NCBI RefSeq assembly: GCF_021295095.1
Contig: NZ_JAJLQX010000003.1
Coordinates: forward strand, 62,001 to 126,000
DNA: 64,000 nucleotides
Reading direction: 5' to 3'
Origin: Phocaeicola oris
Lineage (GTDB): Bacteria > Bacteroidota > Bacteroidia > Bacteroidales > Bacteroidaceae
Positions 11,251 to 60,686 of the stretch are shown here, piece after piece. Each line of letters opens with the position of its first letter. Positions within the stretch are counted from its first letter, which is position 1. The notes under the pieces are model-generated. The model was given only the letters and a program-made list of their open reading frames with translations. It was not told where the DNA came from and ran no database searches. Position numbers and translations under genes: made by a program.

Positions 11251-11380
11251 TTAACTCATGCGTATCACTTAGACAACTCATCAGCATCAATTAGACAACT
11301 CATCAGCATCAATTGAACAACTCATCAGCATCATTTGAGCATTTGATGCCCAACACTTTATTCAATTATACGCATGAGTT
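11251..11380. repeat. 22-bp register array, six units (ATRC|GNAT type)
   Basis: Six modules have centres just after bases 11261, 11283, 11305, 11327, 11349 and 11371, exactly 22 bp apart. The middle units read ACAACTCATCAGCATCAATT, nearly identical three times. The first (AACTCATGCGTATCACTT) and last (ATACGCATGAGTT) are inverted relative to each other. The array fills the gap between the convergent small gene and the arginase-fold gene. It is the reverse-complement counterpart of the 19582-19735 array. No transposon-like arms are seen here. Confidence 0.85.
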
Positions 11381-12078
11381 CATAAACTGTTAACCAACAA
11401 ATTAATAAGAGAAAAATACACTTGTTCGTTTGATAAATGATATGCCCTATCATCGTCACCACAAAGATCAACACCAAGAAATGGTCGATGAATTTCAAGA
11501 AGATAAGACAAATCAGAATAAAGTTGATCGAACGAAAACGTACCTTGGTCCCAATTGGATATAAAATATTTTTTATCCAGAATATCCAAATCAACAGAAA
11601 TATAAATAGGAAAATCAAGCGGAATGAGAGATAAATCTTTCACAAGAACTATTCTATCCTTATATTCATTTAAAAAACTTAATTTTCCAGACGACGGCCC
11701 CACCATATAAACCTTCTGTAAATAAGGATGAGATCCTAACATGTGCCTAACCCAACTGCCACACGAAAGCATTGATGGAATTCGAGACTTTTGAGTATCC
11801 GGATGATGATCAAAAAGCAACAGACTAAATTTTTCAGAAATACTCCTACACCATAAATCTGTCAAATAATGATAATTACCATTATCCAGAAGATGAACCG
11901 CTCTTCTCGGTAATGATTTAATCCGTTCGATAATATTTTTTTGTGCTCTGCCACTACAATAACCATCTACTTCCATTATATCGGTCAAATTGAGCCATAT
12001 AAAATCCGAAGCATGAAGAAACTCGTAATCCTCATACATGTGACTTATATTCATAACAATAACAGATATTTGACTCAT
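11380..12078 (-). CDS. Arginase/agmatinase-fold (ureohydrolase superfamily) protein
   Basis: 232 residues, shorter than typical arginases (~300). It keeps two metal-site motifs of the superfamily in altered form: FDHHPD at 89-94 (usually D-A-H-x-D) and SVDLDILD at 161-168 (usually S-x-D-x-D-x-x-D-P). The first motif, GGDHS, appears only as LDNGNYHY. Retained Asp and His residues suggest a two-metal site, but the substrate may not be arginine or agmatine. It is a single gene, convergent with the repeat array and divergent from the polysaccharide export gene. Confidence 0.7.
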   Translation of the reverse strand: MSQISVIVMNISHMYEDYEFLHASDFIWLNLTDIMEVDGYCSGRAQKNIIERIKSLPRRAVHLLDNGNYHYLTDLWCRSISEKFSLLLFDHHPDTQKSRIPSMLSCGSWVRHMLGSHPYLQKVYMVGPSSGKLSFLNEYKDRIVLVKDLSLIPLDFPIYISVDLDILDKKYFISNWDQGTFSFDQLYSDLSYLLEIHRPFLGVDLCGDDDRAYHLSNEQVYFSLINLLVNSL

Positions 12079-12145
12079 AGTTCTACATTTTCAATATTTC
12101 CAGCACTTTTTTAATAAACAGGACTGATTAATTCCAAATTATAAT

Positions 12146-12153
12146 TAACTTTG
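12146..12153 (+). promoter_or_regulatory. -7 box of the polysaccharide export operon
   Basis: TAACTTTG matches TAnnTTTG exactly and lies 47 bp before the ATG at 12201. No convincing -33 TTTG is found at 19-21 bp upstream. Confidence 0.5.
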
Positions 12154-12200
12154 CACATGCTATACACTATCACCAAACAAATTTAAATAAAAAATAGTTT

Positions 12201-14588
12201 ATGCGTAAATTCTTAACTCTATTAATCCTATTAGTGACATTATCAGGAACTGCTGCATACGCGCAGCAAATGTCAGATAAAGAAGTAATAGAATATTTAA
12301 AGCAAGCACAAGCTGCAGGTAAAACTCAACGGCAAATGACAACAGAATTGATGCGTCGTGGTGTTACCCGTCAACAAGTTGAACGAATTCGAGATCAATA
12401 TTTAAAGGAACAAGCAGATAAACAAAATCAAACCATATCTGCTCCAAACGATACAATAAGGAGGACTCGTACCGATGTTCAAGAGACAGGAGAAGTTATT
12501 AACGAGCGTACTACACCCATGCCCGTAGCAACTCCGACAATTCCGATTTTCGGACATAATCTGTTTACAAATGCCAATCTCTCATTCGAGCCTAACGCAA
12601 ATTTAGCAACTCCTACAAATTATGTTTTAGGTCCGGGAGATGAAGTAATCATAGATGTGTGGGGAGCTTCAGAAAATACCATTCGCCAGACCATCTCTCC
12701 CGACGGCAATATACAAATCAGTGGCTTGGGTCCTATTTCCTTAAGCGGAATGACCATACAGGCGGCCGATCGTTTTTTACGCAATGAACTTTCAAAAATA
12801 TATTCAGGTCCGGATACACAAGTCAAACTGACCTTAGGAAACATTCGCTCTATACAAATTAATATTATGGGCGAAGTTACTGTTCCGGGAACATATACTT
12901 TATCTGCTTTTTCATCAGTCTTTCACGCATTATATAGAGCCGGAGGTGTAAACGACATCGGTAGTTTGCGTAGTATTAAAGTTGTCCGCAACGGGCGAAC
13001 GATCGCTGATTTAGATGTTTACAGTTTTATAATGAAAGGTAAGATGAATGATGACGTTCGCCTTTTAGAAGGTGATGTAATCATTGTTGAGCCTTATAAA
13101 TCGTTGGTATCTATAGAAGGAAAGGTTAAACGACCAATGTATTATGAGCTGAAATCGGATGAAACTTTTAAAACATTACTTGATTATGCCGGTGGTTTTA
13201 CCGGAGACGCATATAAACAATCGGTAAGATTAATCCGTAAAACAGGACGCGAGCACCAGATATTCAATATTGACGAAGTTGATTACTCCGTATTCCGCAT
13301 GGAAGATGGTGATGAAATTTCTGTAGACTCTGTCCTCAATCGCTACGAAAACCGAATAGAAATTCGAGGAGCCGTTTTCCGCGAAGGCATATATCAACTG
13401 GATGGCCAAACAAATACCGTTAAAGCATTAATAAAAAAAGCAGACGGCTTAAGAGAAAACGCATTCTTAAATCGTGCGATACTTACACGTGAAAAGGATA
13501 ATTTGGATCATGAAATAATTTCAATTGATTTGAATGCTCTCTTAAATGGTTCCGTGCCGGATATCCCTTTAAAAAAGAACGATGTTTTGTACATCCCAAG
13601 TATTCAAGGGCTAAAGGAAATGGAGACAGTAACCATCCACGGAGAGGTTAATATTCCCGGCACATACGCATACGCAGAAAATATGACGGTAGAAGATTTG
13701 ATTATAGTTTCAGGCGGATTGTTAGAGGATGCTTCTACCGTGAAGGTCGATATTACCCGCAGAATAAAAGACCCAAGCAGTACATTATACTCTAAGGAAG
13801 TTGGCAAGACATATACTATTGACATAACAGATAACTTTAAGGTTGGTGATGAAACTTTCCATTTGGAACCATACGATGAAGTATATATCAGAAAGAGTCC
13901 CGCATACAGAGCACAGCAGAATGTAACTATCGGAGGTGAAGTTTTATTCGGAGGCAACTATGCGCTTCAGAGTAAGAATGAACGTATTTCATCTTTAATT
14001 CAAAGATCCGGCGGATTAACTCCGGAAGCATATATCAAAGGTGCCCGATTAATCAGGACAAGAACCGAAGAAGAGAAGATGAGAGAGATGGATATGCTCA
14101 AAATGGCAAGAAGAGCTACCGGTAATGATTCTATTGACGTTAGTATATTAAATGTTTCCAACACATATCCTGTAGGAATAGATTTGGAACAAGCTTTGAG
14201 AAATCCAAATTCAGACTATGACTTAGTACTACGCGATGGTGACGTCGTATATATCCCGGAATATATCAATACGATAAAAATCAGTGGGGCTGTGATGTAT
14301 CCAAATACTGTTTTATATCAAAAAGATGAAAATTTAAAGTATTACATCAATCAAGCAGGAGGTTTTGGAAGCAATGCTCGGAAACATAAAGTTTACGTAG
14401 TTAATTTAAATGGTAAGGCTTCGAAACTGAGATTACATAGCAGAAAACAAATTGAACCCGGAAGTGAAATCATCGTTCCGGAAAAAGATAAGAGTAATAG
14501 AGCAAGTTTACCCGAGATGATAAGTATTGGAACAATGACAGCATCTATGGCAGCAGTTATAGCATCCATTATCCGTCTCTTTAAATAA
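12201..14588 (+). CDS. Outer-membrane polysaccharide export protein (Wza-like, multi-SLBB)
   Basis: 795 residues. A signal peptide (ending AAYAQQ) is followed by a short helical region and the polysaccharide export domain with VLGPGDEVIIDVWG (about 143-156). At least five SLBB-type beta-grasp repeats follow, each marked by I-x-G-x-V-x-x-P-G-x-Y (IMGEVTVPGTY, IEGKVKRPMYY, IRGAVFREGIY, IHGEVNIPGTY, IGGEVLFGGNY). A hydrophobic helix ends the protein. The family forms the outer-membrane channel for capsule or exopolysaccharide. It is twice the length of E. coli Wza, as is common in Bacteroides. Its stop overlaps the next ATG by one base. Confidence 0.92.
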   Translation: MRKFLTLLILLVTLSGTAAYAQQMSDKEVIEYLKQAQAAGKTQRQMTTELMRRGVTRQQVERIRDQYLKEQADKQNQTISAPNDTIRRTRTDVQETGEVINERTTPMPVATPTIPIFGHNLFTNANLSFEPNANLATPTNYVLGPGDEVIIDVWGASENTIRQTISPDGNIQISGLGPISLSGMTIQAADRFLRNELSKIYSGPDTQVKLTLGNIRSIQINIMGEVTVPGTYTLSAFSSVFHALYRAGGVNDIGSLRSIKVVRNGRTIADLDVYSFIMKGKMNDDVRLLEGDVIIVEPYKSLVSIEGKVKRPMYYELKSDETFKTLLDYAGGFTGDAYKQSVRLIRKTGREHQIFNIDEVDYSVFRMEDGDEISVDSVLNRYENRIEIRGAVFREGIYQLDGQTNTVKALIKKADGLRENAFLNRAILTREKDNLDHEIISIDLNALLNGSVPDIPLKKNDVLYIPSIQGLKEMETVTIHGEVNIPGTYAYAENMTVEDLIIVSGGLLEDASTVKVDITRRIKDPSSTLYSKEVGKTYTIDITDNFKVGDETFHLEPYDEVYIRKSPAYRAQQNVTIGGEVLFGGNYALQSKNERISSLIQRSGGLTPEAYIKGARLIRTRTEEEKMREMDMLKMARRATGNDSIDVSILNVSNTYPVGIDLEQALRNPNSDYDLVLRDGDVVYIPEYINTIKISGAVMYPNTVLYQKDENLKYYINQAGGFGSNARKHKVYVVNLNGKASKLRLHSRKQIEPGSEIIVPEKDKSNRASLPEMISIGTMTASMAAVIASIIRLFK

Positions 14589-15715
14589 TGATTATGATTG
14601 ACGAAAAGAAACAAAATACGGAAGAAGTCGATCTGGTTAATGAACAAGAGATTGACTTGATGGAAATAGCAAGAAAAATCTGGAGTAAACGAAAGTTTAT
14701 ATATAAGGTATGTGGCATCGCTTTACTTGCGGGTTTAGTGGTTGCCTTTAGCATTCCAAAGGAATACACTACCGCCGTAAAACTCTCCTCCGAAAGAACA
14801 AACAGTCGATCAGGCGGAAATCTAAGTTCCTTGGCAGCTATGGCAGGAATTAATCTTAGCTCATCCAACTCAGATGCGCTGTCCGACCAAATTTATCCGG
14901 ATGTCATGGCTTCTACTCCTTTCTTAAAAGAACTTTTTAAAGTTCAAGTAAAAAATAAGAAAGGCAACACAACCTTATATAATTATCTCCTAAATGATTA
15001 TAGATTACCTTGGTGGAGTTCAATCTTTAAAGGTGTGTTCTCTATACCATCTAAAATAATCGGCTTATTTAAAAACAAAGAAAAGGATAGCAATGAAATC
15101 GATCCCGAGTATCTGTCTAAAGATGACAGAAGAGTCATTAGTGCGCTATCAGAGAATTTAAATTTATCTGTAGACCAAAAAACCGGTGTAATGGATTTGG
15201 CTGTCACTATGCAAGACCCGAATATCTGCGCACAAGTAACTGATACAGTAATAGCTAATTTACAGAAGTATATTACAACTTATAGAACTAATAAAGCTCG
15301 TAAAGACTTGGCATACTCTCAGAAATTATATGAAGAGGCAAAATCTGCTTACACTAAAGCTCAGAACGAGTACGCAAACTTTACAGACGCAAATCAGAAT
15401 CTGATATTACATAGTTACAGAGCAGAACAGGAACGGTTGCAAAACGAGATGAATTTAGCATATCAAACTTATTCCCAAACATCTCAACAATTACAAGCAG
15501 CTAAGGCAAAAGTACAAGAAAACACTCCGGCATTTGCTGTTATTCAGCCTTCAATAGTGCCAATGCGTGCATCCAAACCAAGAAAAATGATTATCCTTAT
15601 TGGATTTCTATTCTTAGGATTTGTTGGAGCATGTGCATGGGTTTACTTTGAAGACCAAATAAAGGAATGGAAAAAGCAAATTACTGATCAGGAAACAATA
15701 GTTGAACAAAAATAA
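14588..15715 (+). CDS. Wzz-type chain-length determinant / polysaccharide co-polymerase
   Basis: 375 residues with the two-helix layout of this family. A membrane helix (about 39-56) follows the motif EIDLMEIARKIWSKRKFIYK. A long periplasmic section with a coiled-coil (about 230-310) leads to a second helix near the C-terminus, preceded by the Pro/Lys-rich PSIVPMRASKPRKM. It controls polysaccharide chain length at the inner membrane with the export channel encoded just upstream. No tyrosine-kinase domain is fused. The 1-bp overlap with the wza-like gene supports coupled expression. Confidence 0.9.
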   Translation: MIMIDEKKQNTEEVDLVNEQEIDLMEIARKIWSKRKFIYKVCGIALLAGLVVAFSIPKEYTTAVKLSSERTNSRSGGNLSSLAAMAGINLSSSNSDALSDQIYPDVMASTPFLKELFKVQVKNKKGNTTLYNYLLNDYRLPWWSSIFKGVFSIPSKIIGLFKNKEKDSNEIDPEYLSKDDRRVISALSENLNLSVDQKTGVMDLAVTMQDPNICAQVTDTVIANLQKYITTYRTNKARKDLAYSQKLYEEAKSAYTKAQNEYANFTDANQNLILHSYRAEQERLQNEMNLAYQTYSQTSQQLQAAKAKVQENTPAFAVIQPSIVPMRASKPRKMIILIGFLFLGFVGACAWVYFEDQIKEWKKQITDQETIVEQK

Positions 15716-15722
15716 AAGCATA

Positions 15723-16187
15723 ATGGAAAAATGTATTGTAAATAACTACGACGAATTTGCTTCATGGTTAGGCAAAGTAATCGGTGTTTCAGATTATATC
15801 CAGATTACTCAAGACAGAATAAATAAGTTTGCTGACGCAACAAATGATCATCAATGGATACATGTCGATATAGACCGTGCAAAAACAGAATCACCTTATA
15901 AAAGTACAATCGCACATGGTTATCTGACTTTATCCATGCTTCCACACCTATGGAATCAAATTATTGAAGTTCATAACTTAAAGATGATGGTAAACTATGG
16001 TATGGATAAGATGAAATTTGGCCAGCCTGTGCTCTCCGGACAAAGCATTCGTCTTACCGCTTCTCTCCAAGATATTCAGAATCTTCGAGGTATAACTAAA
16101 GCAGAAATAAAATTCACACTTGATATCAAGGAACAAAATAAGAAAGCATTAGAAGGTGTCGCAACTTTCTTATACTATTTTAGTTAA
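15723..16187 (+). CDS. MaoC-like hot-dog-fold hydratase
   Basis: 154 residues from the ATG at 15723; a longer frame starts at an unlikely TTG inside the wzz-like gene. The hydratase motif is present as FADATNDHQWIHVD followed by STIAHGYLTLSMLP, with the Asp/His pair of R-specific enoyl-CoA hydratases. The family hydrates acyl-CoA double bonds. It lies 7 bp after the chain-length gene and is followed by a terminator, so it appears to be the last gene of that operon. Its link to polysaccharide is not obvious; it could supply a hydroxyacyl group or simply be a passenger. Confidence 0.85.
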   Translation: MEKCIVNNYDEFASWLGKVIGVSDYIQITQDRINKFADATNDHQWIHVDIDRAKTESPYKSTIAHGYLTLSMLPHLWNQIIEVHNLKMMVNYGMDKMKFGQPVLSGQSIRLTASLQDIQNLRGITKAEIKFTLDIKEQNKKALEGVATFLYYFS

Positions 16188-16202
16188 ATCTATCATGAAA
16201 GA

Positions 16203-16235
16203 GAAGGTGTGTTGAAAAGCACACCTTCCTTTTTT
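16203..16235 (+). terminator. Intrinsic terminator after the polysaccharide export operon
   Basis: A perfect 9-bp stem, GAAGGTGTG (16203-16211) with CACACCTTC (16220-16228), is followed by a T run. It lies 15 bp past the hydratase stop, between convergent genes. Confidence 0.9.
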
Positions 16236-17592
16236 ATACAATAACCATTCTGTTATTAACAACCTTAATCCTTTTATAAACCCATATAAAGGCAGGAACC
16301 AAAAACGCGACGGCAAACACCCAAGCCGTAGGATCACCGAAACAAACAGCCATATATCCGAAAGAAGGAACAGCAAACAAACTGACTAATACACGAGCTA
16401 TCATCTCAGACACTCCGGACAACATGGATAATCCGGTATAACCCACTCCCTGAATCGTATAGCGTAAGATACATAGTGTACCTAAAACAGGATAGAAAGA
16501 TACTGATATATGTAAGAATAAAGCTGTATCTCTAATGATTTCTGTTTCCGAGGAATCAATAAACATGAGTGCGAAGAATTCTGAACCAATCCAAAGAACA
16601 ATTCCTATTACAATACTATACATAATCATCATCAACCAAGCAGACTTTACACCTTGCCAAACTCTTTTCGGCTTCCCTGCTCCATAATTCTGCCCGGCGA
16701 AAGTGGCCATTGCAATACCTAAGGTTTCAAGCGGGCACATACAAAACATTTTAATGCGCATAGCCGCGGTAAAGGCAGCAACACAAGCAGTGCCTAACGC
16801 GTTATTAGCACTCTGAAGCATTATACTTCCGATAGCAGTTATACTAAACTGCAACCCCATAGGAACTCCTATATATAATAAGGTATTAGCATATCTTTGT
16901 TTATACTTCCTTTCATCAGCCGTACTCCGTAATATATAGAAATGTCTCTGCATATAGAAGAAACAAAGAATGGCAGAAACACCTTGCGCAATCAAGGTAG
17001 CTATTGCAGCTCCCGCTACTCCCCAGCCCATTATCAGTATACAAAATAAATCTAATACAATATTTAATATCGTACTGAATAAAAGGAACCAAAATGGAGT
17101 CTTACTATCTCCCAATGCTCTAATGATACTCGAAAGCAAATTATATAAGAAAGTACAAGGAATGCCGATAAAAGTGATTAACAAATAAATATAAGCACCA
17201 TCGAAAATCATTTCAGGAGTTCGCATCCACTGTAGAATACTCTCGCATAATAAAGCAGTGGCTATCATTAGTGCTATACTCATCCCCATCGATAATTTGA
17301 TTCCTGTCCAAATCATTCTACGCATCGTTGAGTAATCTCTGGCACCGAATTTCTGAGCAACAGGAATGCCAAATCCTCCACAACATCCATTGCAAAATCC
17401 TAAGATAAGAAAAATAACGGAAGAACTTGCTCCAACAGAAGCTAAAGCATTTATACCTAAAAACTTACCAACTATAGCCGCGTCAACCAACGAATAAGTC
17501 TGCTGCAGTAAATTTCCACCCAATAAAGGTAGAGCAAAATGGAAAATCTGAGGAAGAGTAGCTCCCTCTGTCATCTCATTGGTAGTACTCAT
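16234..17592 (-). CDS. MATE-family multidrug/flippase transporter
   Basis: 452 residues with about 12 hydrophobic helices. It begins MTEGATLPQIFHFALPLLGGNLLQQTYSLVDAAIVGKFLG, with the Pro-Leu-x-x-x-x-x-x-Q and D-x-x-x-V/I-G-x-F pattern of the DinF/NorM-like MATE transporters. The family exports cationic drugs or other substrates by Na+ or H+ antiport. It lies 17 bp downstream of the WecA-like gene on the same strand. That context allows a role near lipid-linked sugars, but ordinary efflux is equally possible. Confidence 0.92.
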   Translation of the reverse strand: MSTTNEMTEGATLPQIFHFALPLLGGNLLQQTYSLVDAAIVGKFLGINALASVGASSSVIFLILGFCNGCCGGFGIPVAQKFGARDYSTMRRMIWTGIKLSMGMSIALMIATALLCESILQWMRTPEMIFDGAYIYLLITFIGIPCTFLYNLLSSIIRALGDSKTPFWFLLFSTILNIVLDLFCILIMGWGVAGAAIATLIAQGVSAILCFFYMQRHFYILRSTADERKYKQRYANTLLYIGVPMGLQFSITAIGSIMLQSANNALGTACVAAFTAAMRIKMFCMCPLETLGIAMATFAGQNYGAGKPKRVWQGVKSAWLMMIMYSIVIGIVLWIGSEFFALMFIDSSETEIIRDTALFLHISVSFYPVLGTLCILRYTIQGVGYTGLSMLSGVSEMIARVLVSLFAVPSFGYMAVCFGDPTAWVFAVAFLVPAFIWVYKRIKVVNNRMVIV

Positions 17593-17609
17593 TAAAAAGG
17601 TTTATTGAA

Positions 17610-19566: not shown

Positions 19567-19735
19567 CATAAAGAGATTACAAAAACTGATGCGGATGAGT
19601 TGTTCAATTGATGCGGATGAGTTGAACGATTCATGCGGATGAGTTGTCCAATTGATGCGGATGAGTTGATCGGTTCATGCGGATGAGTTGGACGATTCAT
19701 GCGTATGAGTTTGGCAACTCATACGTATCACTTCA
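19567..19735. repeat. 22-bp register array, seven units (ATGCGGATGAGTTG type)
   Basis: Seven modules have centres just after 19592, 19614, 19636, 19658, 19680, 19702 and 19724, all 22 bp apart. Five read ATGCGGATGAGTTG plus a variable 8-base spacer. The last two are ATGCGTATGAGTT and its inverse AACTCATACGTAT, giving a 13-bp hairpin with a TGGC loop (19699-19728). The left flank TCATAAAGAGATTA (19567-19580) equals the reverse complement of the right arm that borders the arrays at 28193 and 60021. The array lies between the convergent UpxY and prfC genes. Confidence 0.88.
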
Positions 19736-27636: not shown

Positions 27637-28035
27637 ATGACTAAAATTATAGATAATACATTACTGGATAAAGTATCGGCAGAGGCAAAAGAAAGTCCCC
27701 GCTTACGAATGAATTACAATTTTCATACCTCACTCGACGCGAAAGCACAATGCTTGCTAAACGCTGTGGAGCCGGGGACAAAAGTTGTCATTCATCGACA
27801 CATGCATACCGATGAAACATTTGTGATACTGCGTGGCCGACTGAACGCATTTATCTACAATAACGATAAATCGATTCAAATTAAAAAAGAAATCAATCCT
27901 CTAAAAGGAGTGTATGGTTATAATATCCCGAAAGGTGTATGGCATACCATTGAAGTTTTAGAACCCAACACCGTTCTGATGGAAGTGAAAGACGGACCAT
28001 ACACACCTATCACACCCGATGACATATTAATGTGA
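27637..28035 (+). CDS. WbuC-family cupin metalloprotein
   Basis: 132 residues. A cupin barrel has likely metal ligands in HRHMHTDETFVILRGRL (His residues and Glu) and a later His in IPKGVWHTIEVL. WbuC-type cupins are found near O-antigen genes and in other settings; the reaction is unsettled. The stop codon TGA (28033-28035) lies in the left terminal inverted repeat of the mobile-like element that starts here, so the end of this gene may have been set by the insertion. Confidence 0.8.
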   Translation: MTKIIDNTLLDKVSAEAKESPRLRMNYNFHTSLDAKAQCLLNAVEPGTKVVIHRHMHTDETFVILRGRLNAFIYNNDKSIQIKKEINPLKGVYGYNIPKGVWHTIEVLEPNTVLMEVKDGPYTPITPDDILM

Positions 28036-28453
28036 GTTCAACGAATCTAAAATAATACGAACTGCGCCTGATTCTTTTTAAACAGACACACCAATCTTTT
28101 TAAAAATCAATAGTATACAACTACTACTCCGATACGTAGGAACAAAAAAATTGAACCATATAAGTTGCCGTATTCATCAGAAGATTTTTTTCGTTTCACT
28201 TATGTGATACTTTCGTTTCACTGCAGTGAGACAATTGTTTCACCTATGTGAGTCACTTGTTTCACCTATGTGAAACAAGTAGATTATACGTATGAGTTGA
28301 TTGATTCATACAGTTCTTTTTGCTAATCTCTTTATGACAATTTTAAAGAACCTGACAAAAAGAGAAAAACATCGTTTTAAACATACTATAAGGTCGTATT
28401 CCATCTTTGTAGGTTTCTACATGGGCATCCTGTTATTTCATCGAATTATATTA
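28029..28453 (+). mobile_element. MITE-like element copy A with a 22-bp array
   Basis: About 425 bp. The left end GTGAGTTCAACGAA (from 28032) and right end TTCATCGAATTATATTA (28437-28453) form imperfect terminal inverted repeats. Inside are a left arm (28045-28192), then four GTTTCAC modules starting at 28193, 28215, 28237 and 28259. Two ATAC|NNNN modules follow on the same 22-bp register (centres after 28289 and 28311), then a right arm. The right arm 28321-28447 differs from copy D (60172-60298) at about five of 127 positions, without gaps. No reading frame is present, so movement would need a transposase supplied elsewhere. Confidence 0.82.
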
Positions 28454-35461: not shown

Positions 35462-35505
35462 TTATGTCATGCGAATGATCAAGATAAATCATCAGTATGA
35501 CATAA
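35462..35505. repeat. Two-unit 22-bp module hairpin between ispH and meaB
   Basis: TTATGTCAT (35462-35470) pairs with ATGACATAA (35497-35505), and an inner ATGAT/ATCAT stem nests within it. Module centres ATGC|GAAT (after 35472) and ATCA|GTAT (after 35494) are 22 bp apart. It is thus a minimal version of the larger arrays. It sits just past the ispH stop in a convergent gap and could work as a terminator for either gene, although no T run follows. Confidence 0.65.
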
Positions 35506-37844: not shown

Positions 37845-38234
37845 TATAATGTGAATTCGAGGAAATAACAAAGAGGCTACGCAGAAACCAACGAAAGCAA
37901 AATATGGTCTAATAGCATATTGGTGAGGTGTTTTTTCCTTTTTATTTGGTTTTTTAATATTATCATAAAGAGATTAGTAAAAGAGAACCGTATGAATCAC
38001 TCAACTCATGCATATAATCTACTTGTTTCACATAGGTGAAACGAATGTATCACATCTGTGAAACGAAAAATTCTTTTAATGAATACGACAACTTATATGG
38101 CTCAAATTCTTTGTTCCTACGTATTGGGATAGTAGCCGCGTACCATTGATTTCTTCAAAGATTTGCGTGCCTGTTTAAGAAGAAGCAAAGATACACGGCT
38201 TACATTATTTTGAATTCGTCGAACTCGCGTTATT
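37845..38234 (-). mobile_element. MITE-like element copy B (inverted)
   Basis: About 390 bp, in reverse orientation to copies A and D. Ends are TATAATGTGAATTCGAGGAA (37845-37864) and, read from the other side, AACGCGAGTTCGACGAA (to about 38234), an imperfect inverted pair. It carries only two GTTTCAC-type modules (37 bp apart from the flank; centres after 38033 and 38055) and two ATAC-type modules (after 37989 and 38011), all 22 bp apart. The long left arm (minus sense, 38234-38070) is very close to that of copy D. It lies in the divergent gap between the DUF1573 and alpha-2-macroglobulin genes. Confidence 0.8.
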
Positions 38235-51880: not shown

Positions 51881-52080
51881 TCAGTTCTTCTTTTTAGATG
51901 GACACACAACTTTTTGAAATGAACCATATAAGTTACCATATTCATCAGAAGAATTTTATCGTTTCACATTAGTGAAACAAGTGAATCACATCAGTGAAAC
52001 AAGTGAATCACTCATGTGAAACAAACAAATTATATGTATGAATTGAGCAATTCATACGCGTCACTTTTTCTAATCATCTT
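51881..52080 (+). mobile_element. Decayed MITE-like element copy C with a 22-bp array
   Basis: The left arm is short and degraded compared with copy A (an internal stretch of about 60 bp is missing) and the right arm has drifted. The array is intact: GTTTCAC or GAATCAC modules with centres after 51969, 51991 and 52013, then ATAT|GTAT (52035) and ATAC|GCGT (52057), all 22 bp apart. TIR sequences are not clear. It lies between Gfo/Idh and murF genes, both on the minus strand. Confidence 0.72.
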
Positions 52081-52246
52081 GAAGACAAATTAAATACACA
52101 AGATAGGTTCACAAGTTCATGAGTTTACTTAGACTTGTTTTTCAAAACGGACTTATGCCACCAGCAAAACTACACTATCTGAAACGATATAAAAGTTCTC
52201 ACATAAGTGTGTAAAAAATGGTTCTTCCCTGTTTTCTGATATCTTA
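52081..52246. other. AT-rich gap downstream of murF
   Basis: Beyond the recognisable part of copy C the sequence shows no gene. It includes GTTCACAAGTTCATGAGTTTACTT (about 52107-52130), which faintly resembles the module family but is off register. No terminator hairpin for murF is clear. Confidence 0.4.
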
Positions 52247-53592: not shown

Positions 53593-53645
53593 CTCCAAAC
53601 TATTAAAATTGAGTCGAGAAATAAAAGAAAAAACAATTATTATCG

Positions 53646-53653
53646 TAATTTTG
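53646..53653 (+). promoter_or_regulatory. -7 box of folP-cdaA
   Basis: TAATTTTG fits TAnnTTTG, 18 bp before the folP ATG at 53672. This rules out the upstream TTG start at 53609, which would lie ahead of the transcript. Confidence 0.55.
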
Positions 53654-53671
53654 CGCTATAATAAAAAGATT

Positions 53672-54511
53672 ATGGAAAAATACATCAATGTAAACGGCAA
53701 ACTAATGGACATGAATACCCCACAGGTAATGGGTATTCTGAATGTGACACCTGACTCTTTCTACGCGGAAAGCCGTAAACAAACTGAAGAAGGAATTATA
53801 AATCGGGTAAATCAAATTATATCTGAAGGTGCTTCTATTATTGACATTGGGGCTTATTCATCCCGTCCGTTTGCCGATGATGTATCACCGGAAGAAGAGA
53901 TGTCCCGTCTGCGAAAAGGGCTGAATATTATCCGTAAAGAAGTGCCGGAAGCAATCGTTTCGGTCGATACCTTCCGTAGTGATATTGCAAAAATGTGTGT
54001 TGAAGAATATGGAGTAGCGATCATCAATGATATCTCGGCCGGCGAACTGGATAAAGGAATGTTTCCTACGGTTGCCAAACTTGGCGTTCCTTATATACTA
54101 ATGCACATGAAAGGGACTCCACAGGATATGCAAACAAATCCTCTGTATGACAATCTTTTAAAAGAAGTTTTCTATTATTTTTCAGAAAAGTTGGCTGCAT
54201 TGCGCGACTTAGGGACAAAGGATATTATACTTGATCCCGGGTTTGGATTTGGAAAAACAATAGAAGATAATTATAAGTTGCTGAATAATTTACAGGAATT
54301 TAGTATCTTTGACTTGCCCATTTTAGTTGGGGTATCACGCAAGTCGATGATTTATAAGTTGCTCGGCACTACTCCACAAGAGGCTTTAAACGGAACAACA
54401 GTAATCGACACCATCTCACTTATGAAAGGGGCGAATATCTTACGAGTCCACGATGTACGTGAGGCTGTAGAGTCCGTAAATATATTCCGCGAAATGAAAG
54501 AACAAAATTAA
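53672..54511 (+). CDS. folP: Dihydropteroate synthase
   Basis: 279 residues from the ATG at 53672. The family signatures are MGILNVTPDSFY, GASIIDIGAYSSRPF, DTFRSDIA, NDISAG, LMHMKGTPQDMQ and VGVSRKSMI. It joins pABA to dihydropterin pyrophosphate in folate synthesis and is the sulfonamide target. cdaA begins 5 bp later and is probably co-transcribed, a pairing found in other Bacteroidetes. Confidence 0.96.
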   Translation: MEKYINVNGKLMDMNTPQVMGILNVTPDSFYAESRKQTEEGIINRVNQIISEGASIIDIGAYSSRPFADDVSPEEEMSRLRKGLNIIRKEVPEAIVSVDTFRSDIAKMCVEEYGVAIINDISAGELDKGMFPTVAKLGVPYILMHMKGTPQDMQTNPLYDNLLKEVFYYFSEKLAALRDLGTKDIILDPGFGFGKTIEDNYKLLNNLQEFSIFDLPILVGVSRKSMIYKLLGTTPQEALNGTTVIDTISLMKGANILRVHDVREAVESVNIFREMKEQN

Positions 54512-54516
54512 AAAAG

Positions 54517-55278
54517 ATGTTTGAATTTGGCATAAAAGACCTCATTGATATTTTGCTGGTAGCCTATATTCTGTACCAGACCTACCGATTAATGAAAGAT
54601 TCCGGTTCTATCAATATCTTTACCGGTATTATGATATTGCTTGGAGTGTGGGTCATTGTGTCGCAAGTTCTGAACATGCGTCTGGTGGGTGCTATTTTAG
54701 ACAAAGTAATCAGCGTCGGTGCTTTGGCACTTATTGTTCTCTTTCAGGAAGATATACGTCGGTTTCTTGTTCATTTGGGTTCTCATAAACGTATGGGCAG
54801 TCTGTTCCGCTATTTTTCCGGTAACAAAGGAGACAAAACCGACCGCTCAGCCATCATGCCTATTGTCATGGCCTGTCTGAGTATGAGCAAAGGTAAAGTA
54901 GGTGCCCTGATAGTTATAGAAAAAACGATGCCTTTGAATGACATTATCCGTACCGGCGATATTATCAATGCCAATATTAACCAACGTCTGATAGAGAACA
55001 TCTTTTTTAAGAACAGTCCGTTGCATGATGGAGCCATGATTATCCGAAATAAACGAATAGAAGCTGCCGGCTGTATTCTACCGGTATCACACGATATGGA
55101 CATTCCAAAAGAGTTAGGCTTGCGTCATCGTGCTGCAATGGGAATTTCTCAAGAGACAGACGCATTGGCTGTCATCGTTTCGGAAGAAACAGGTGGTATA
55201 TCAGTAGCATACAAAGGACAATTCCATTTACGCCTCACCGCAGAGGAATTAGAACGTATGCTGACTAAAGAGAATTAA
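54517..55278 (+). CDS. cdaA: Diadenylate cyclase CdaA (DisA-N domain)
   Basis: 253 residues with three N-terminal membrane helices (about 8-75), then the DAC domain. The catalytic motifs are SPLHDGAMII (DGA) and LRHRAAMGISQETDAL (RHR), followed by VSEETGGIS. It makes cyclic di-AMP from two ATP. No cdaR or glmM lies next to it, unlike Firmicutes; a CdaR-like gene is at 31416. Its 3' end overlaps the convergent GNAT gene by four bases. Confidence 0.95.
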   Translation: MFEFGIKDLIDILLVAYILYQTYRLMKDSGSINIFTGIMILLGVWVIVSQVLNMRLVGAILDKVISVGALALIVLFQEDIRRFLVHLGSHKRMGSLFRYFSGNKGDKTDRSAIMPIVMACLSMSKGKVGALIVIEKTMPLNDIIRTGDIINANINQRLIENIFFKNSPLHDGAMIIRNKRIEAAGCILPVSHDMDIPKELGLRHRAAMGISQETDALAVIVSEETGGISVAYKGQFHLRLTAEELERMLTKEN

Positions 55279-56303
55279 TCCATCATCAAACTCATATAAG
55301 GCATATTCTTTCGGAACAGATATGCTGTCGCTTTTTCTATGGTAAACGGGAAACCAATCGGTTTATCCTGATGGCTATGCTTTACTTCCCCCGCACTTAT
55401 TATATATATACCTTCATTCACAGGAATATCTTTATCCTCCGTAATATAAAACGAAAAGTTTTCTTTCGGATTGGCTTTCGCGTAAATTGCATAGGCTTTC
55501 TCTACATCAAGCAGCCGAGCCATTCCATACACTCCATCCGCATTTGCACTTGGTCTAATCCATAAGGCATTGAATATACGGAAGTGCATTGCAACACCTG
55601 CCAATAATGTGATCTTCACTTCTTCATTATCAAAAAGTAATTCTTTTATTAGTAAATCATTACCTTTATACACAGTCATAACCAATCCAACCGTTTCACT
55701 CTGTTGTTTTACTGTCAGAAGTAAACCTTTATCTAAAAATAAATCGGATATAATATCTTGAAAATCATTATATGAGTGTTGGATACAGCAAGGCCTACTC
55801 CGAAGAGCCCTATTCAAATAATTAAAAACATCCGGATTACATTTCGAACAAATCAAATGATATTTTTTGTTCCATTGATTCCGTTCATAATCAAACAGAA
55901 AAGAATCTAAACTCAATTTTTCTGTAGCAAACTTGAACACAGAAGCATACCCCGAAACCTGATAATAATGAAAAAGCCAGTCTTCTGCAGGAATCAATGT
56001 GGAGAAAAGCGCGTCATTCGCTCTTATCTTCCGGTGAGCCTCTGTAAGCAACCGACGCATGAACCCTTGCTTTCGATAATCCGGATGAGTACAAGCTCCG
56101 GAGACATAAGCTACTTTTATGGTCGCATTAAAAAAAGTCATATCATAAGGTATCATCTGCAAAGCGGAAACTACTCTCCCGTCCTTACGTATATCCACAT
56201 TGATATCATCGGAATAACGACGACTGAAATACAAATCAATGAATTCCTCAGGATCGTTAAAGCACGTCTTCCAGAGCTCCCTTATTTCACTTTTTGTGGT
56301 CAT
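55275..56303 (-). CDS. GNAT acetyltransferase, Eis-like two-domain type
   Basis: 342 residues from the ATG at 56303; the longer frame starts with TTG. The acetyl-CoA motif is YRKQGFMRRLLTEAH in a V-x-G-A-C-T-H-P-D-x-R context typical of Eis-like proteins. The end of the protein looks like the SCP2-like domain of that group. It could acetylate an amine on a protein or small molecule; substrate unknown. Its start overlaps the DUF2156 gene end by 17 bp, so the two are coupled. Confidence 0.82.
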   Translation of the reverse strand: MTTKSEIRELWKTCFNDPEEFIDLYFSRRYSDDINVDIRKDGRVVSALQMIPYDMTFFNATIKVAYVSGACTHPDYRKQGFMRRLLTEAHRKIRANDALFSTLIPAEDWLFHYYQVSGYASVFKFATEKLSLDSFLFDYERNQWNKKYHLICSKCNPDVFNYLNRALRSRPCCIQHSYNDFQDIISDLFLDKGLLLTVKQQSETVGLVMTVYKGNDLLIKELLFDNEEVKITLLAGVAMHFRIFNALWIRPSANADGVYGMARLLDVEKAYAIYAKANPKENFSFYITEDKDIPVNEGIYIISAGEVKHSHQDKPIGFPFTIEKATAYLFRKNMPYMSLMMD

Positions 56304-57189
56304 TATACTCAGCAATAAATTTCTCTAAAAGAATAGTTGGTTGATACGATAGTTTAGCTTTTCGCAAACCATCTATTCCTAAATCCTCTTCCCTATTAAT
56401 ATAGGTATACTGTTCGGCTATATGATTAGCATATTCATAATTAATCATCGCATAAGAACCTTCTATATCGGTATCCGCCTTTTCAACACATGTATCCCAT
56501 GTATTATAATTAATAGCTGCCCCATAAGTGAAAGCGCAAATTTTGCCACCCACATGAAGTACTCCGCCCGTAATATCCAACTCTTTAATATGCTTCAAGG
56601 CATAAGTCATGGAACATCGTTCTTCTAATAACGCGTCCCGTTCTTTTCCAGAGCTTTCAGTATACCACTCCGATTCTAAACGGAGACATTCAGGAACCAG
56701 TTCCGGAGTCAGTTCTATATACTCATAATCCGGATACGTCCGTTTAAACTTATTCACATGATTACGTTTAGGCTGATATTTCTTCCCTTTCAGAGTCGCC
56801 AGATCTTCTCGTAAATATATATAATCAAAGAAATCTCTATCTTCTGTGAAAGTAAACTTATCCGGCATAGCTTCTTCCAAATCAGTTCTCATATTCTCAC
56901 AAACACCATGTAAACGTAATGGAGCACCCAACGACTCGGAATCAGCAACCATTGCCTCTAATACAGGACGCAGATTACCATTACCTACCGGAAGCATATA
57001 AACAAGACGCTTTCCCGAATAGAAACGAAACAGGAGATAATCATTCATCACAGCATACTGAGTCTTATAAACAAAAATCCAACTGCAAAGATTCGCGAAC
57101 AGAAGATCGCAGTTCCTACGTGTACTGTTTAAAGTAAAATGTTGGATTATATCTTTATCCGCAAGCGTTACAGCTTTAAAGTTTAACAT
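56287..57189 (-). CDS. DUF2156 (phosphatidylglycerol lysyltransferase C-domain-like) protein
   Basis: 300 residues from the ATG at 57189; the frame from 57252 lies upstream of the likely mRNA start. It has a tandem GNAT-like fold, with KGKKYQPKRNHVNKFKRTYPDYEY and the conserved VHVGGK-like LHVGGKICAFTYGAAIN, as in DUF2156. Members of the wider group transfer aminoacyl groups to lipids, but this short form lacks the membrane part of MprF. It is paired with the GNAT gene, suggesting a common modification pathway (inference). Confidence 0.8.
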   Translation of the reverse strand: MLNFKAVTLADKDIIQHFTLNSTRRNCDLLFANLCSWIFVYKTQYAVMNDYLLFRFYSGKRLVYMLPVGNGNLRPVLEAMVADSESLGAPLRLHGVCENMRTDLEEAMPDKFTFTEDRDFFDYIYLREDLATLKGKKYQPKRNHVNKFKRTYPDYEYIELTPELVPECLRLESEWYTESSGKERDALLEERCSMTYALKHIKELDITGGVLHVGGKICAFTYGAAINYNTWDTCVEKADTDIEGSYAMINYEYANHIAEQYTYINREEDLGIDGLRKAKLSYQPTILLEKFIAEYNDHKK

Positions 57190-57213
57190 GATACAAAGAG
57201 TTAAATATGGGCA

Positions 57214-57221
57214 CAAAATTA
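57214..57221 (-). promoter_or_regulatory. -7 box of the DUF2156-GNAT operon
   Basis: Minus-strand TAATTTTG fits TAnnTTTG, 24 bp before the ATG at 57189. Confidence 0.5.
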
Positions 57222-57302
57222 ATAAAAGTTTTTCGCTGTATCGAATACTCACATAAATAAAAAATAATATTCATTTTGCAAGGTCTATATGACAATTTTG
57301 AC

Positions 57303-57310
57303 TATTTTTG
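57303..57310 (+). promoter_or_regulatory. -7 box of pta-ackA
   Basis: TATTTTTG fits TAnnTTTG, 41 bp before the pta ATG. A TTTG at 57275-57278 is 24 bp upstream, a little far for a -33 box. Confidence 0.5.
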
Positions 57311-57351
57311 TAGTCAATAAAAACGATTACATCAGTAAATATAATATTATC

Positions 57352-58365
57352 ATGGATTTATTTACAAGACTTATTGATCGCGCAAAAGCAAACAAACAGC
57401 GCATTGTTCTTCCGGAAGGTACTGAAGAACGTACTTTGAAAGCAGCCGACCGTGCATTGGCTGATGGTATAGCAGACCTGATCATTATTGGTAATGAAGC
57501 TGAGATTAAAGGTTTGGCAAATGAATGGGGATTAAAAAACATTGATAAAGCAATCGTCCTTGATCCCGCTACCAATCCTAAGAAAGAAGAATACGCTCAA
57601 CTGTTAGCCGAACTTCGTAAGAAAAAAGGTATGACCATGGAAGAAGCTCGCGAGAAGATGCTTGACCCGCTCTACTTAGGATGTATGATTATTAAAACCG
57701 GTGGTGCCGATGGACAATTGGCAGGTGCACGTAACACAACCGGTAATGTGCTTCGTCCTGCATTACAAATTATTAAGACTGCTCCCTGCATCACATGCGT
57801 TTCCGGAGGCATGATTTTGGTTACAGAAGCTACAGAATACGGTGATAATGGCGTCGTTGTTATAGGTGACGTAGCTGTTACCCCTGTTCCTGAAACAAAC
57901 CAATTGGCTCAAATCGCTATATGTACAGCTCAAACGGCAAAGAATATCGCCGGTATTGAACCACGCGTAGCTATGTTGAGCTTCTCAACAAAAGGTTCTG
58001 CCAAACATGAAGTTGTAGATAAAGTGGTTGAAGCTTTAAGTATGGCCAAACAAATGGACCCTAATTTACTTATTGACGGTGAATTACAGGCCGACGCAGC
58101 TTTAGTTCCAAAAGTAGGCGCGACAAAAGCTCCGAATTCTCCTGTAGCCGGTAAAGCAAATGTTTTAATTGCGCCATGTCTGGAAGTTGGAAACATAGCT
58201 TATAAGCTGGTTGAACGTTTAGGTCATGCAACTGCCGTTGGTCCTATCCTTCAGGGTATTGCGCGTCCGGTAAACGACCTGTCTCGTGGTTGCTCTGTAG
58301 ACGATATATATAAAATGATTGCCATTACAGCCAATCAAGCAATTGCTGCTAAAGAAAACAAATAA
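57352..58365 (+). CDS. pta: Phosphate acetyltransferase
   Basis: 337 residues from the ATG at 57352. This is the short form made only of the PTA/PTB domain, with RIVLPEGTEERTLKAADRAL at the start and GGADGQLAGARNTTGNVLRPALQ and SFSTKGSAKHE as signatures. It exchanges phosphate and CoA on acetyl groups. ackA follows 62 bp later; together they give ATP and acetate from acetyl-CoA. The start is chosen because upstream codons lie across the promoter. Confidence 0.96.
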   Translation: MDLFTRLIDRAKANKQRIVLPEGTEERTLKAADRALADGIADLIIIGNEAEIKGLANEWGLKNIDKAIVLDPATNPKKEEYAQLLAELRKKKGMTMEEAREKMLDPLYLGCMIIKTGGADGQLAGARNTTGNVLRPALQIIKTAPCITCVSGGMILVTEATEYGDNGVVVIGDVAVTPVPETNQLAQIAICTAQTAKNIAGIEPRVAMLSFSTKGSAKHEVVDKVVEALSMAKQMDPNLLIDGELQADAALVPKVGATKAPNSPVAGKANVLIAPCLEVGNIAYKLVERLGHATAVGPILQGIARPVNDLSRGCSVDDIYKMIAITANQAIAAKENK

Positions 58366-58427
58366 TAACCATATAGATGAAAGAGCCGGATGTATCCGAT
58401 TCCTATCATCTTTTTATAAAAAAGCGT

Positions 58428-59639
58428 ATGAAAATTTTAGTTCTAAACTGCGGAAGCTCTTCTATCAAATATAAATTGTTTGATATGCCCGCAGGAAATG
58501 TAATTGCAAGTGGTGGCGTAGAAAAGCTTGGACTTCCGGGATCTTTCTTACAATTCAAGCTATCCAATGGAGAGAAGAAAACATTAGAGAAAGAGATGGC
58601 TGAACATACCGCCGGTATTGAATTCATTCTTGAAACTTTGGTCAATCCGGAATATGGCGCAATCAAATCATTAAATGAGATTGACGCTGTCGGTCATCGC
58701 ATTGTCCATGGTGGCGAACATTTCAATCAATCTGTTTTGCTGACAGATGAGATATTGAAAGTCATTGAGTCGTGTAACGACTTAGCCCCGCTCCATAATC
58801 CGGCTAATCTGAAAGGTGTTGCCGCTGTAACGAAAGCATTACCAAAAGTTCCACAAGTAGGAGTCTTCGATACTGCATTCCATCAAACCATGCCTGATTA
58901 TGCCTATCTCTATGCCATTCCTTATGATTTATATAAAAAGTATAGTATTCGCCGTTATGGATTCCATGGAACATCGCATCGTTACGTTTCACAACGTGCC
59001 TGTGAGTTCCTCGGTATCAAACCGGAAGGCACACGCATAATTACATGTCATATCGGTAATGGCGCTTCTATCGCTGCTATTAAGGATGGTAAATGTATAG
59101 ATACTTCTATGGGACTTACCCCTTTGGAAGGTTGCGTGATGGGTACTCGTAGTGGAGACATCGACCCGGGAGCCGTTATTTATATGATGGAGAAACTTGG
59201 ATTGGACGCAAAAGGCATCTCAAACTTACTGAACAAAGAATCCGGAATGTTGGGCATCACCGGCATCTCTTCTGATATGCGTGAAATTGAAGACGCTATT
59301 GCACAAGGCAATCAACGAGCTGTCTTAGCAGAACAAATCTATTTCTACCGTATACGTAAATACATTGGCGCGTATGCTGCTGCGTTAGGTGGTGTAGATG
59401 TCCTTGCTTTTGCCGGTGGTGTTGGTGAAAACCAGTGGGATTCTCGTGAATACAGTTGCGAAGGCATGGAATTCTTAGGCATTAAACTTGACAAAGAATT
59501 CAACCGGACCATTCATCGGGGAACTTTGAAAGAATGTATTGTTTCAACTCCCGATTCAAAAACCAAGATTGTTGTTATCCCTACCGACGAGGAACTGATG
59601 ATTGCAACAGACACAAAGAATATCTTAGAGAACAAATAA
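58428..59639 (+). CDS. ackA: Acetate kinase
   Basis: 403 residues from the ATG at 58428, giving the family start MKILVLNCGSSSIKYKLFD; an in-frame ATG at 58377 would add 17 atypical residues. DTAFHQTMP, the YGFHGTSHRYVS loop and GARSGDIDPG-like GTRSGDIDPG are conserved. It makes ATP and acetate from acetyl phosphate. A hairpin terminator follows at 59652-59699. Confidence 0.96.
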   Translation: MKILVLNCGSSSIKYKLFDMPAGNVIASGGVEKLGLPGSFLQFKLSNGEKKTLEKEMAEHTAGIEFILETLVNPEYGAIKSLNEIDAVGHRIVHGGEHFNQSVLLTDEILKVIESCNDLAPLHNPANLKGVAAVTKALPKVPQVGVFDTAFHQTMPDYAYLYAIPYDLYKKYSIRRYGFHGTSHRYVSQRACEFLGIKPEGTRIITCHIGNGASIAAIKDGKCIDTSMGLTPLEGCVMGTRSGDIDPGAVIYMMEKLGLDAKGISNLLNKESGMLGITGISSDMREIEDAIAQGNQRAVLAEQIYFYRIRKYIGAYAAALGGVDVLAFAGGVGENQWDSREYSCEGMEFLGIKLDKEFNRTIHRGTLKECIVSTPDSKTKIVVIPTDEELMIATDTKNILENK

Positions 59640-59651
59640 TTGTTCCTTAAC

Positions 59652-59699
59652 AAAATAAGATGAGGGTGTATCTATGATGATATGCTCTCATTTTATTTT
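59652..59699 (+). terminator. Terminator of pta-ackA
   Basis: AAAATAAGATGAG (59652-59664) pairs perfectly with CTCATTTTATTTT (59687-59699) around a 22-base loop, 12 bp past the stop. The downstream arm doubles as a T-rich tract. Confidence 0.75.
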
Positions 59700-59855
59700 C
59701 GTCAAAAGATACGTCGCGACATATTTGAACGGTGCTTTATTATTTCCAGACAAGTTCTCAGGTCCATGAGTGTCTTTTTAGAATCCACTGCTTTCAGGAC
59801 AGTATAATAATCAGTCTTTTTGTTGTTGACTATCTATCCTTTTCTATCTATTTTA
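59700..59855. other. Gap between the ackA terminator and mobile-like copy D
   Basis: No gene, module or hairpin that I can recognise. AT-rich sequence ending at the left inverted repeat of copy D. Confidence 0.4.
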
Positions 59856-60303
59856 ACGTGAGTTCGACGAATTCAAAATAATGTAAGCCGCATATCTCCG
59901 CAGCTTCTTAAACAGACACGCAAATCTTTGAAGAAATCAATGGTACGCGGCTACTACCCCGATACGTAGGAACAAAGAAAGTGGCCATATATGTTGCCGT
60001 ATTCATCAAAAGAATTTTTCGTTTCACAGATGTGATACATTCGTTTCACAGATGTGATACATTCGTTTCACAGATGTGATACACTTGTTTCACTGATGTG
60101 AGTCACTTGTTTCACCTATGTGAAACAAGTAGATTATACGTATGAGTTGAGTGATTCATACGGTTCTCTTTTACTAATCTCTTTATGACAATTTTAAAGA
60201 ACCTGATAAAAAGAGAAAAACATCGTTTTAAACATACTATAAGGTCGTATTCCATCTTTGTAGATTTCTACATAGGCTTCCTGTTATTTCATCGAATTCA
60301 CGT
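59856..60303 (+). mobile_element. MITE-like element copy D, the most complete
   Basis: 448 bp. The left end ACGTGAGTTCGACGAA (59856-59871) and the reverse complement of the right end, ACGTGAATTCGATGAA (60288-60303), match at 14 of 16 positions. Inside are a left arm of about 150 bp and five GTTTCAC modules starting at 60021, 60043, 60065, 60087 and 60109. Two ATAC|NNNN modules (centres after 60139 and 60161) keep the same 22-bp step, and a 127-bp right arm almost identical to copy A follows. No coding capacity. Confidence 0.86.
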
Positions 60304-60686
60304 AATTTTAAAATGCCACAACGCAATTTGCTCCTTTTACTCCCTATCATAGCTTGGGATTTATCATATTGCTACAATAATTTACTGTTGACATGATTCT
60401 AAATACAGAAATCTGTCGGGTAATATAATATTATGAAATAATGTACATAGTACCATGAGTCAATATTTTATATCAGACACATCGAAAAGACCGCTTTGGA
60501 AAGAAGCCATAGTGAACCTCTCACATTTATTTAATTTACCATCAAGAGATAAAAAAAGTGACGCGCACGAATCGATTGACTCATACGCATCACCGGATAA
60601 ATACTTCTGATATATTTTCATAAATTCATGGGCATCATCCTGTCATTTAGTTTTGACACCTTCTATTTTGTGTTTAAATAACGAAC
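60304..60686. other. Gap between copy D and the flavodoxin gene
   Basis: 383 bp without a gene. Apart from the two-unit module pair at 60553-60598 I see no conserved RNA or terminator; no clear hairpin follows the flavodoxin stop. Confidence 0.5.
60553..60598. repeat. Two-unit 22-bp module pair
   Basis: ACGC|GCAC (centre after 60564) and ATAC|GCAT (after 60586) are 22 bp apart, with GTGACGCG and CGCATCAC as inverted outer halves. The stretch AAAAAAGTGACGCG matches, in reverse complement, the edge of the array in copy C (near 52054-52072). It looks like a remnant or a minimal array in the opposite orientation. Confidence 0.6.

Follow-up and report, generated by a model that had tools for sequence, protein, structure and literature searches.

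Intergenic arrays of 22-bp dyad units in Phocaeicola oris as candidate phased sites for a DNA-binding protein, carried in part by IS982-type elements

In this study, we analysed a stretch of 64,000 nucleotides from Phocaeicola oris (contig NZ_JAJLQX010000003.1, positions 62,001 to 126,000; hereafter the window), in which short palindromic modules recur between genes with their centres exactly 22 bp apart. Judging from the sequence, we consider the chances about even that each of these arrays is a row of dyad sites bound by a sequence-specific DNA-binding protein, with miniature inverted-repeat transposable elements (MITEs) having spread part of them. A first-pass annotation of the same DNA had suggested either a protein bound side by side to the modules or selection on RNA hairpins. 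Both stand as candidate readings.

To describe the arrays beyond the window, we used the whole genome, which consists of 2.98 Mb in 50 contigs. A census by arm matching in 948 kb of continuous stretches yielded 70 arrays, comprising 57 of type B and 13 of type A (both defined below), which would scale to about 220 for the entire genome, and an open frame of at least 100 aa contained most of the array in 2 of the 70. In a larger collection of 107 arrays, which includes loci from pattern searches and was deduplicated by exact array sequence only, 98 arrays had 4 to 7 units. When two-module patterns were searched in the whole genome at up to three mismatches, the B pattern gave 649 matches (314 and 335 on the two strands) and the A pattern 216 (106 and 110). 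The autocorrelation proposed in the first-pass annotation, calculated over 448 kb of intergenic DNA, showed peaks at lag 22 (z ~26) and lag 44 (z ~18). Modules were also located without any assumption about spacing, and all 215 neighbours lying 18-30 bp apart were found at 22 bp. The exact register thus held genome-wide, even as the letters varied, in the neighbour spacings and in the module search, for which the reversed patterns gave 0 matches. Wider spacings were 43 bp (three cases), 44 bp (nine) and 54 bp (one); the 43-bp cases and the single 54 may conceal indels (insertions or deletions) within a degraded module.

The constraint on this spacing was estimated from the DNA around the arrays. 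In 51 flank alignments, each 60 bp or longer, there were 88 gap openings per 1008 substitutions. The linkers between neighbouring modules, in 142 comparisons, differed by a total of 204 substitutions. Applied to the 215 junctions, the ratio of the flanks predicts about 26.9 linker indels and 0 were seen, a result that covers linkers only, since modules with internal indels score below the threshold. The 22-bp register looks selected, because some 27 linker indels were expected from the flanks and none was observed.

The unit follows a 7-4-7-4 layout, in which a left half-site of 7 bp, a 4-bp gap, an oppositely oriented right half-site of 7 bp and a second 4-bp gap succeed each other, and the half-sites alternate every 11 bp. 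The B unit is AACTCAT-NCGN-ATGAGTT and the A unit is GTTTCAC-N4-GTGAAAC. These had been taken for unrelated module types, which was not borne out, because the core TCA-N6-TGA is common to both (the B core can also be read as TCAT plus ATGA). From the sequences, A and B look like variants of one dyad, TCAY-N4-RTGA. A logo of the A unit was phased by the MITE flanks alone and drawn from the 19 A elements (100 units) whose insert is exactly divisible by 22. TCAY and RTGA carried 1.3-2.0 bits, the outer G 1.5 bits and the outer C 1.3 bits, whereas the central N4 carried only 0.11-0.84 bits. The B arrays (n = 61) are often capped by AAGTGAT and ATCACTT; the outermost half-sites were AAGTGAT (17), AAGTCAT (9), AACTGAT (8) and AACTCAT (7) at one end, and ATCACTT (19) and ATGAGTT (18) at the other. 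At one locus (L025), the 22-bp repetition extends to the cap unit AAGTGAYGCGGATGAAGATGAA, on the 5' side of the array proper.

Conserved TCAY and RTGA around a low-information N4 form the pattern of a dimer operator whose centre would be left unread. At the level of sequence, the arrays combine conserved half-sites, an unread centre and a fixed helical phase, as a putative operator array would. At roughly one turn of the helix per half-site, every site would lie on the same side. Dimers could then bind next to one another in a cooperative patch, typically of four to seven dimers, and selection on this patch would remove indels. The movement of MITEs would have spread part of the arrays.

The position of the arrays relative to genes, taken as called open frames without annotation, bears on their possible role. 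The 70 arrays comprised 22 between convergent genes, 36 between tandem genes, 11 between divergent genes and 1 of unclear context, and the intergenic regions of at least 100 bp in the same genome comprised 54 convergent, 141 tandem and 75 divergent. Convergent regions were over-represented (Fisher p 0.008) and divergent regions under-represented (p 0.012) in a test that counts arrays as regions. Among 80 relatives, 21 arrays were tandem, 7 convergent, 2 divergent and 3 unclear, with 238 tandem, 73 convergent and 100 divergent intergenic regions of at least 60 bp. Because the arrays are enriched between convergent genes and depleted between divergent ones, a role at gene ends may be proposed in place of one at promoters; it could lie in insulation, in ending transcripts from both directions or in organising the nucleoid.

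Many arrays of this genome lie within longer elements. The long copies begin and end with the terminal inverted repeat ACGTGARTTCGAYGAA. In six two-ended copies aligned by eye, the target duplication was an exact 7 bp in three (TATCTTA twice, TAAATTA) and had one mismatch in two; the remaining copy (L006) had none. A terminal repeat of the ACGTGARTTCGAYGAA type was also found within ~125 bp of several contig ends, and in one form it adjoins a frame beginning MITE(N/S)KV(T/I)EIFCM, as read by eye. A 71-aa piece of this frame showed a 51% match (70/71 residues) to a place annotated as IS982 family transposase, and three better matches (73-85%) carry no annotation. A Pfam and NCBIfam profile search of this short piece gave nothing useful. 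By their sequence, the long elements are IS982-type MITEs: they have target-site duplications, and their terminal repeats are common to an IS982-like sequence, known here from the 71-aa fragment and not from a whole transposase. Two further places carry related material. At C1:1195-1842 of this genome (L007, L212, L213), an apparent hybrid joins the right half of the MITE to that end of the IS982-like sequence on which the transposase lies, and both parts carry the terminal repeat that they have in common. At L220:1604-2560, an IS982-like 5' fragment leads into a different sequence, perhaps part of another mobile gene in the opposite direction.

Within the 107-array set, 27 of the 33 A arrays and 24 of the 74 B arrays had detectable MITE flanks; the frame is not common to all arrays, and 50 of the 74 B arrays have no detectable flanks. 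The insert between the inner flanks was measured in 27 elements, with flank matches accepted at E <=1. It spans 2-10 units and was an exact multiple of 22 in 22 elements, one bp longer in three and one bp shorter in two. Five of the 27 are labelled B, of which three are exact and two are at +1, and two of these five are A/B mixtures. These results indicated that the A arrays and some B arrays occupy the MITE frame in the same phase. As the first-pass annotation had claimed, the modules are interchangeable in one frame, since A and B follow each other in register and the inserts are multiples of 22.

All eight window loci named in the first-pass annotation were confirmed by direct reading and repeat finders, with modules 22 bp apart, and a count of core pairs agreed. 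The exact core TCAY-N4-RTGA occurs 25 times in the window. Nineteen core pairs lie within 60 bp of each other, 12 at 22 bp and 7 at 44 bp, with no other spacing. Twenty first-order Markov shuffles of the window gave a mean of 6.6 cores and not one 22-bp pair. The arrays, pairs and MITE copies of the window are as follows.

11253..11391, no strand: array of B modules, AACTCAT-N4-ATSANTT, on the 22-bp register, between convergent genes
19584..19733, no strand: array of seven B modules, 3' of a NusG-domain gene, between convergent genes
28030..28447, plus strand: MITE copy, left terminal repeat (28030-28045) differing from the pattern by 2 mismatches, right end cut short at CATCGAATT
28193..28298, plus strand: array within the 28030..28447 MITE, four A modules and then B, in register
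35467..35500, no strand: two units, TCATGCGAATGA and TCATCAGTATGA, at a distance of exactly 22 bp, between a LytB-like and a MeaB-like gene that converge
37849..38230, minus strand: reversed MITE copy with a terminal repeat at either end (2 and 1 mismatches)
38003..38064, minus strand: array within the 37849..38230 MITE, B, A, A
51917..52110, plus strand: partial element, A A A B B with a weaker leading module, short stretches of both inner MITE flanks
59856..60303, plus strand: full MITE copy, both terminal repeats with 0 mismatches
60021..60148, plus strand: array within the 59856..60303 MITE, five A modules and then B, 132 bp or 6 units between the flanks
60556..60595, no strand: two-unit pair AAGTGAC-N4-ACGAATC, N4, GACTCAT-N4-ATCACCG, 22 bp apart, outer half-sites cap-like

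Four arrays had been placed in longer elements. Those at 28030, 37849 and 59856 proved to be MITEs with terminal inverted repeats, whereas 51917-52110 is only a partial MITE, with no terminal repeat at up to 3 mismatches. The element at 37849..38230 is flanked by TATTATA and TATTATG, which agree in 6/7 positions of a target duplication. The sequence TCATAAAGAGATTA precedes the 19584..19733 array and is also present within the MITE. For the MeaB-like product, the best match among the 80 relatives was in Phocaeicola abscessus (86%). A search of the window against Rfam 15 at gathering scores found 0 known RNA families. Elsewhere in the window, an inverted repeat at 734-779 has 22-nt arms, 95% complementary and 2 nt apart, and resembles a terminator hairpin.

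Arrays on the same period were then found in relatives. A family sample of 80 named loci of Bacteroidaceae type, with 95.7 kb of intergenic sequence, had 28 segments at lag 22, 11 at lag 44, 7 each at lags 14 and 21, and at most 4 at any other lag; three first-order Markov shuffles of the sample gave 0. One lag-22 segment was seen in 47 kb of intergenic DNA from other families of the class, and none in 24 kb from different classes of the phylum; the 20-kb control stretches included several short contigs. A 21-bp signal in other families of the class (6 segments) was set aside and not counted as alike, since it is accompanied by lags 14, 28, 35 and 42 and suggests 7-bp repeats. Intergenic lags 14, 21, 28, 35 and 42 were raised in other families of the class (L241-L260). 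The unit sequences of the 22-bp arrays in relatives are unlike one another. An even-palindromic consensus (at least 8/11 pairs) was present in 7 of 33 of these arrays, compared with 40 of 4000 (1%) random 22-mers; 7 others of the 33 had an odd-centred dyad of at least 8/10, a figure given without a null.

Pattern searches showed which letters occur where. Bacteroides sp. 224 has a dispersed family GTGGCAC-N4-GTGCCAT (66 matches, control 0). The pattern GTTTCAT-N4-RTGARAN matched 85 times in an uncultured Bacteroides (G212) and 32 times in B. reticulotermitis (G216), with a control of 0, and 0 times in the two other relatives searched. A member of another genus of the family (G028) has arrays of AACTCAT and TTTCTAC type. 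When the B pair was scanned in 60 other genomes of the family, two had matches, namely the variant arrays of G028 and one weak match in G049. The same scan found 0 in the same-genus genomes G013 and G041, whose sampled intergenic DNA gave a lag-22 z of just 2.8 and 0.5, respectively. The A pair gave 0 matches in 147 other genomes of the phylum, and the exact B pair gave 0 in 84,980 species genomes, a collection that may omit this genome or very near ones.

The arrays of G212 and G216 were studied at hand-picked loci, eight per genome and mostly places with at least two matches, so their unit number may be biased. By the stricter core, all eight sampled arrays of G212 have four units; L368 and L369 have 5 modules with looser matching, which admits a partial edge module, and 4 with the stricter core. 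The eight G212 arrays share no flanks with each other at E 1e-3, and unit identity was 0.748 within arrays and 0.742 between arrays. In G216, 5 of the 8 sampled loci have common flanks and 3 do not. Going by the sequences, the G212-type arrays are not plain minisatellites, because they have four units, unrelated flanks and no excess of similarity within arrays.

These data bear on whether the arrays are neutral minisatellites inside a MITE, in which slippage would change the unit number and an IS982-type transposase would spread the copies without any function. BrickBuilt, described below, is a known parallel (PMC4596501). The MITE flanks on many A and B arrays and the terminal repeats equal to those beside the IS982-like frame fit such an origin, as does the greater likeness of adjacent interior units (0.843) than of non-adjacent ones (0.805) in P. 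oris. Against it stand the missing linker indels, 26.9 of which were expected from flanks of the same family, the G212 arrays, the B arrays outside any detectable frame and the recurrence of 22 bp in the family with other sequences. We regard this explanation as unlikely and already disfavoured.

Several further features were seen around the arrays of relatives. At 7 of 10 distinct array loci of Bacteroides sp. 224 (L324, L325, L327, L329, L330, L332, L334), the same sequence end, TGTATGTTAACGTTTTTAGTTGACTA..., starts within ~50 bp of the array, in many cases where a contig ends. These arrays may have a repeated element inserted beside them or be carried by it; compared with plasmids, the TGTATGTTAACGTTTTTAGTTGACTA-type element gave a single 73% match. 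Inverted repeats around single arrays were looked for at L173 and L163, with none found, and at L194, where nothing appeared besides the array itself and a hairpin close to it. At L201:3861-3933, neighbouring units appear by eye to be complementary through their 4-nt loops too (gggc / gccc), giving a longer hairpin.

The alternative that the arrays act as RNA hairpins seems to us rather improbable, although it accounts for features of the B arrays. ATGAGUU would pair with the following RRYUCAU across a 4-nt loop and serve termination or 3'-end protection, and the caps AAGTGAT and ATCACTT, where present, may close a multibranched structure at transcript ends. The B arrays show a polarity of G.U over A.C, and RRYTCAT comprises the forms able to pair with GUU once G.U pairs are counted. 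The interior left half-sites GATTCAT (59), GGTTCAT (36), AGTTCAT (27), AACTCAT (22) and AATTCAT (15), set against 186 ATGAGTT, conform to this set, whereas AAGTCAT (18), AACTGAT (11) and AATTGAT (9) pair incompletely. In tandem contexts, the G.U strand of B arrays was the gene strand in 20/27 at a polarity of at least 3 (p 0.019), in 18/24 at 4 (p 0.023), in 22/32 at 2 (p 0.050), in 22/34 at 1 (p 0.12) and in 10/13 at 6 (p 0.09), with polarity cells that are not independent, since units share ancestry, and with strand composition uncontrolled. The A arrays showed no gene-strand bias (5/14). The predicted RNA energy was lower on the G.U strand in 51 of 52 arrays, as expected when the strand is picked by its G.U count. 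Avoidance of divergent regions also suits transcript-end hairpins. The arms of G212 had 21 G.U and 14 A.C cells, mixed within arrays and with no clear strand preference. Moreover, loops and joints of an RNA would tolerate changes of length, yet the linker spacing is invariant.

Other observations weigh against the DNA-binding explanation. The B arrays are one-sided, with a nearly invariant half-site ATGAGTT and a partner that is mostly RRYTCAT, which is better explained by an RNA stem than by a symmetric protein. Dyads are not universal, and many arrays of relatives are not clear dyads. A second family sample of 20 genomes was poorer (3 lag-22 segments in 28 kb, z 3.7). In G212 and G216, module spacing was 22 bp in 46 cases, 10 bp twice, and 18 and 44 bp once each, the exceptions involving partial or degraded modules. 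Collectively, the invariant spacing favours protein binding and the strand bias of the B arrays mildly favours RNA; we lean towards sites on DNA.

We tentatively extend the idea of protein-bound sites to the family, at clearly less than even confidence. The Bacteroidaceae may possess lineage-wide, chromosome-scale phased operator arrays, in which many genomes would have a site sequence of their own, recognised by a DNA-binding protein that co-evolves with it. The arrays, numbering from about a dozen to a few hundred in the genomes searched, would each form a nucleoprotein patch of fixed size, often of four dimers and mostly away from promoters, and the period rather than the letters would be conserved. 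If spacing is what selection sees, the arrays would be a structural code invisible to ordinary motif searches, since the letters differ between species. If true, it would point to a DNA-binding system not yet known, belonging to one of the dominant bacterial families of the gut and acting at the ends of transcripts or in organising the chromosome, and a MITE that carries arrays to many places would be a way of spreading binding sites.

Among known systems, the repeat-bearing MITEs of Porphyromonas gingivalis (PMC4596501) are the nearest named thing, as the first-pass annotation had suggested. One of these is BrickBuilt, a MITE of P. gingivalis with 23-nt repeats and a terminal inverted repeat of the GAGACCTTTGCA type, reported from P. 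gingivalis and P. gulae only. Like our elements, BrickBuilt is an intergenic MITE that has a leader, a tail and, internally, direct repeats of ~20 bp, and it too varies in its number of units and has many partial copies (PMC4596501). It differs in its 23-nt unit and GAGACCTTTGCA repeat, compared with 22 bp and ACGTGARTTCGAYGAA here, and our elements do not belong to it; moreover, the words "palindrom-" and "hairpin" are absent from its text, and the parts consulted describe no fixed register or second module type (PMC4596501). The terminal repeats of MITE239 (ACGTGAGTTCGA...) and MITE700 (TCGAACTCACGT) of P. gingivalis are nearly equal to ACGTGARTTCGAYGAA, whereas these two are said to hold no mini- or microsatellites (PMC4596501, Table 2).

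Repetitive extragenic palindromes (REPs) and bacterial interspersed mosaic elements (BIMEs) with REP-associated tyrosine transposases (RAYTs) are likewise short, dispersed, extragenic palindromes that are sometimes tandem (PMC3733652), whereas our arrays have a fixed 22-bp period and a 7-4-7-4 layout, and no Y1 transposase was found here. That the arrays are repeats of this type moved by a RAYT is very improbable. Their sequences are dispersed, extragenic, palindromic and genome-specific, and Y1 genes occur in 3 of 11 array-bearing relatives; in Bacteroides sp. 224, a Y1-transposase-like gene with a Pfam match (L334:2582-3028, minus strand) lies ~1.1 kb from a 22-bp array. However, Y1_Tnp (PF01797) had no match in the P. 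oris genome or in 8 of the 11 relatives. RAYT-linked REPs were rejected because a Y1 transposase was not found in this genome. TAACTGA heptamer repeats, which are abundant, intergenic and present in five Bacteroidetes as well, and which in the main species lie for the most part directly 5' of start codons, were also rejected as an identity, since they are direct heptamers and our half-sites alternate (PMC4679880).

Our searches of the open-licence literature brought up no account of such 22-bp dyad arrays in Bacteroidaceae. Operator arrays with a spacing near 22 bp include plasmid iterons, parS and Noc sites; iterons are confined to one origin and parS half-sites abut, whereas the half-sites here are 4 bp apart and occur at many loci. 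The A half-site GTTTCAC equals the parS half-site. Compared with the first-pass annotation, the present analysis adds 22-bp arrays of other sequence in Bacteroidaceae, the IS982-type MITE frame and indel-free linkers beside indel-rich flanks.

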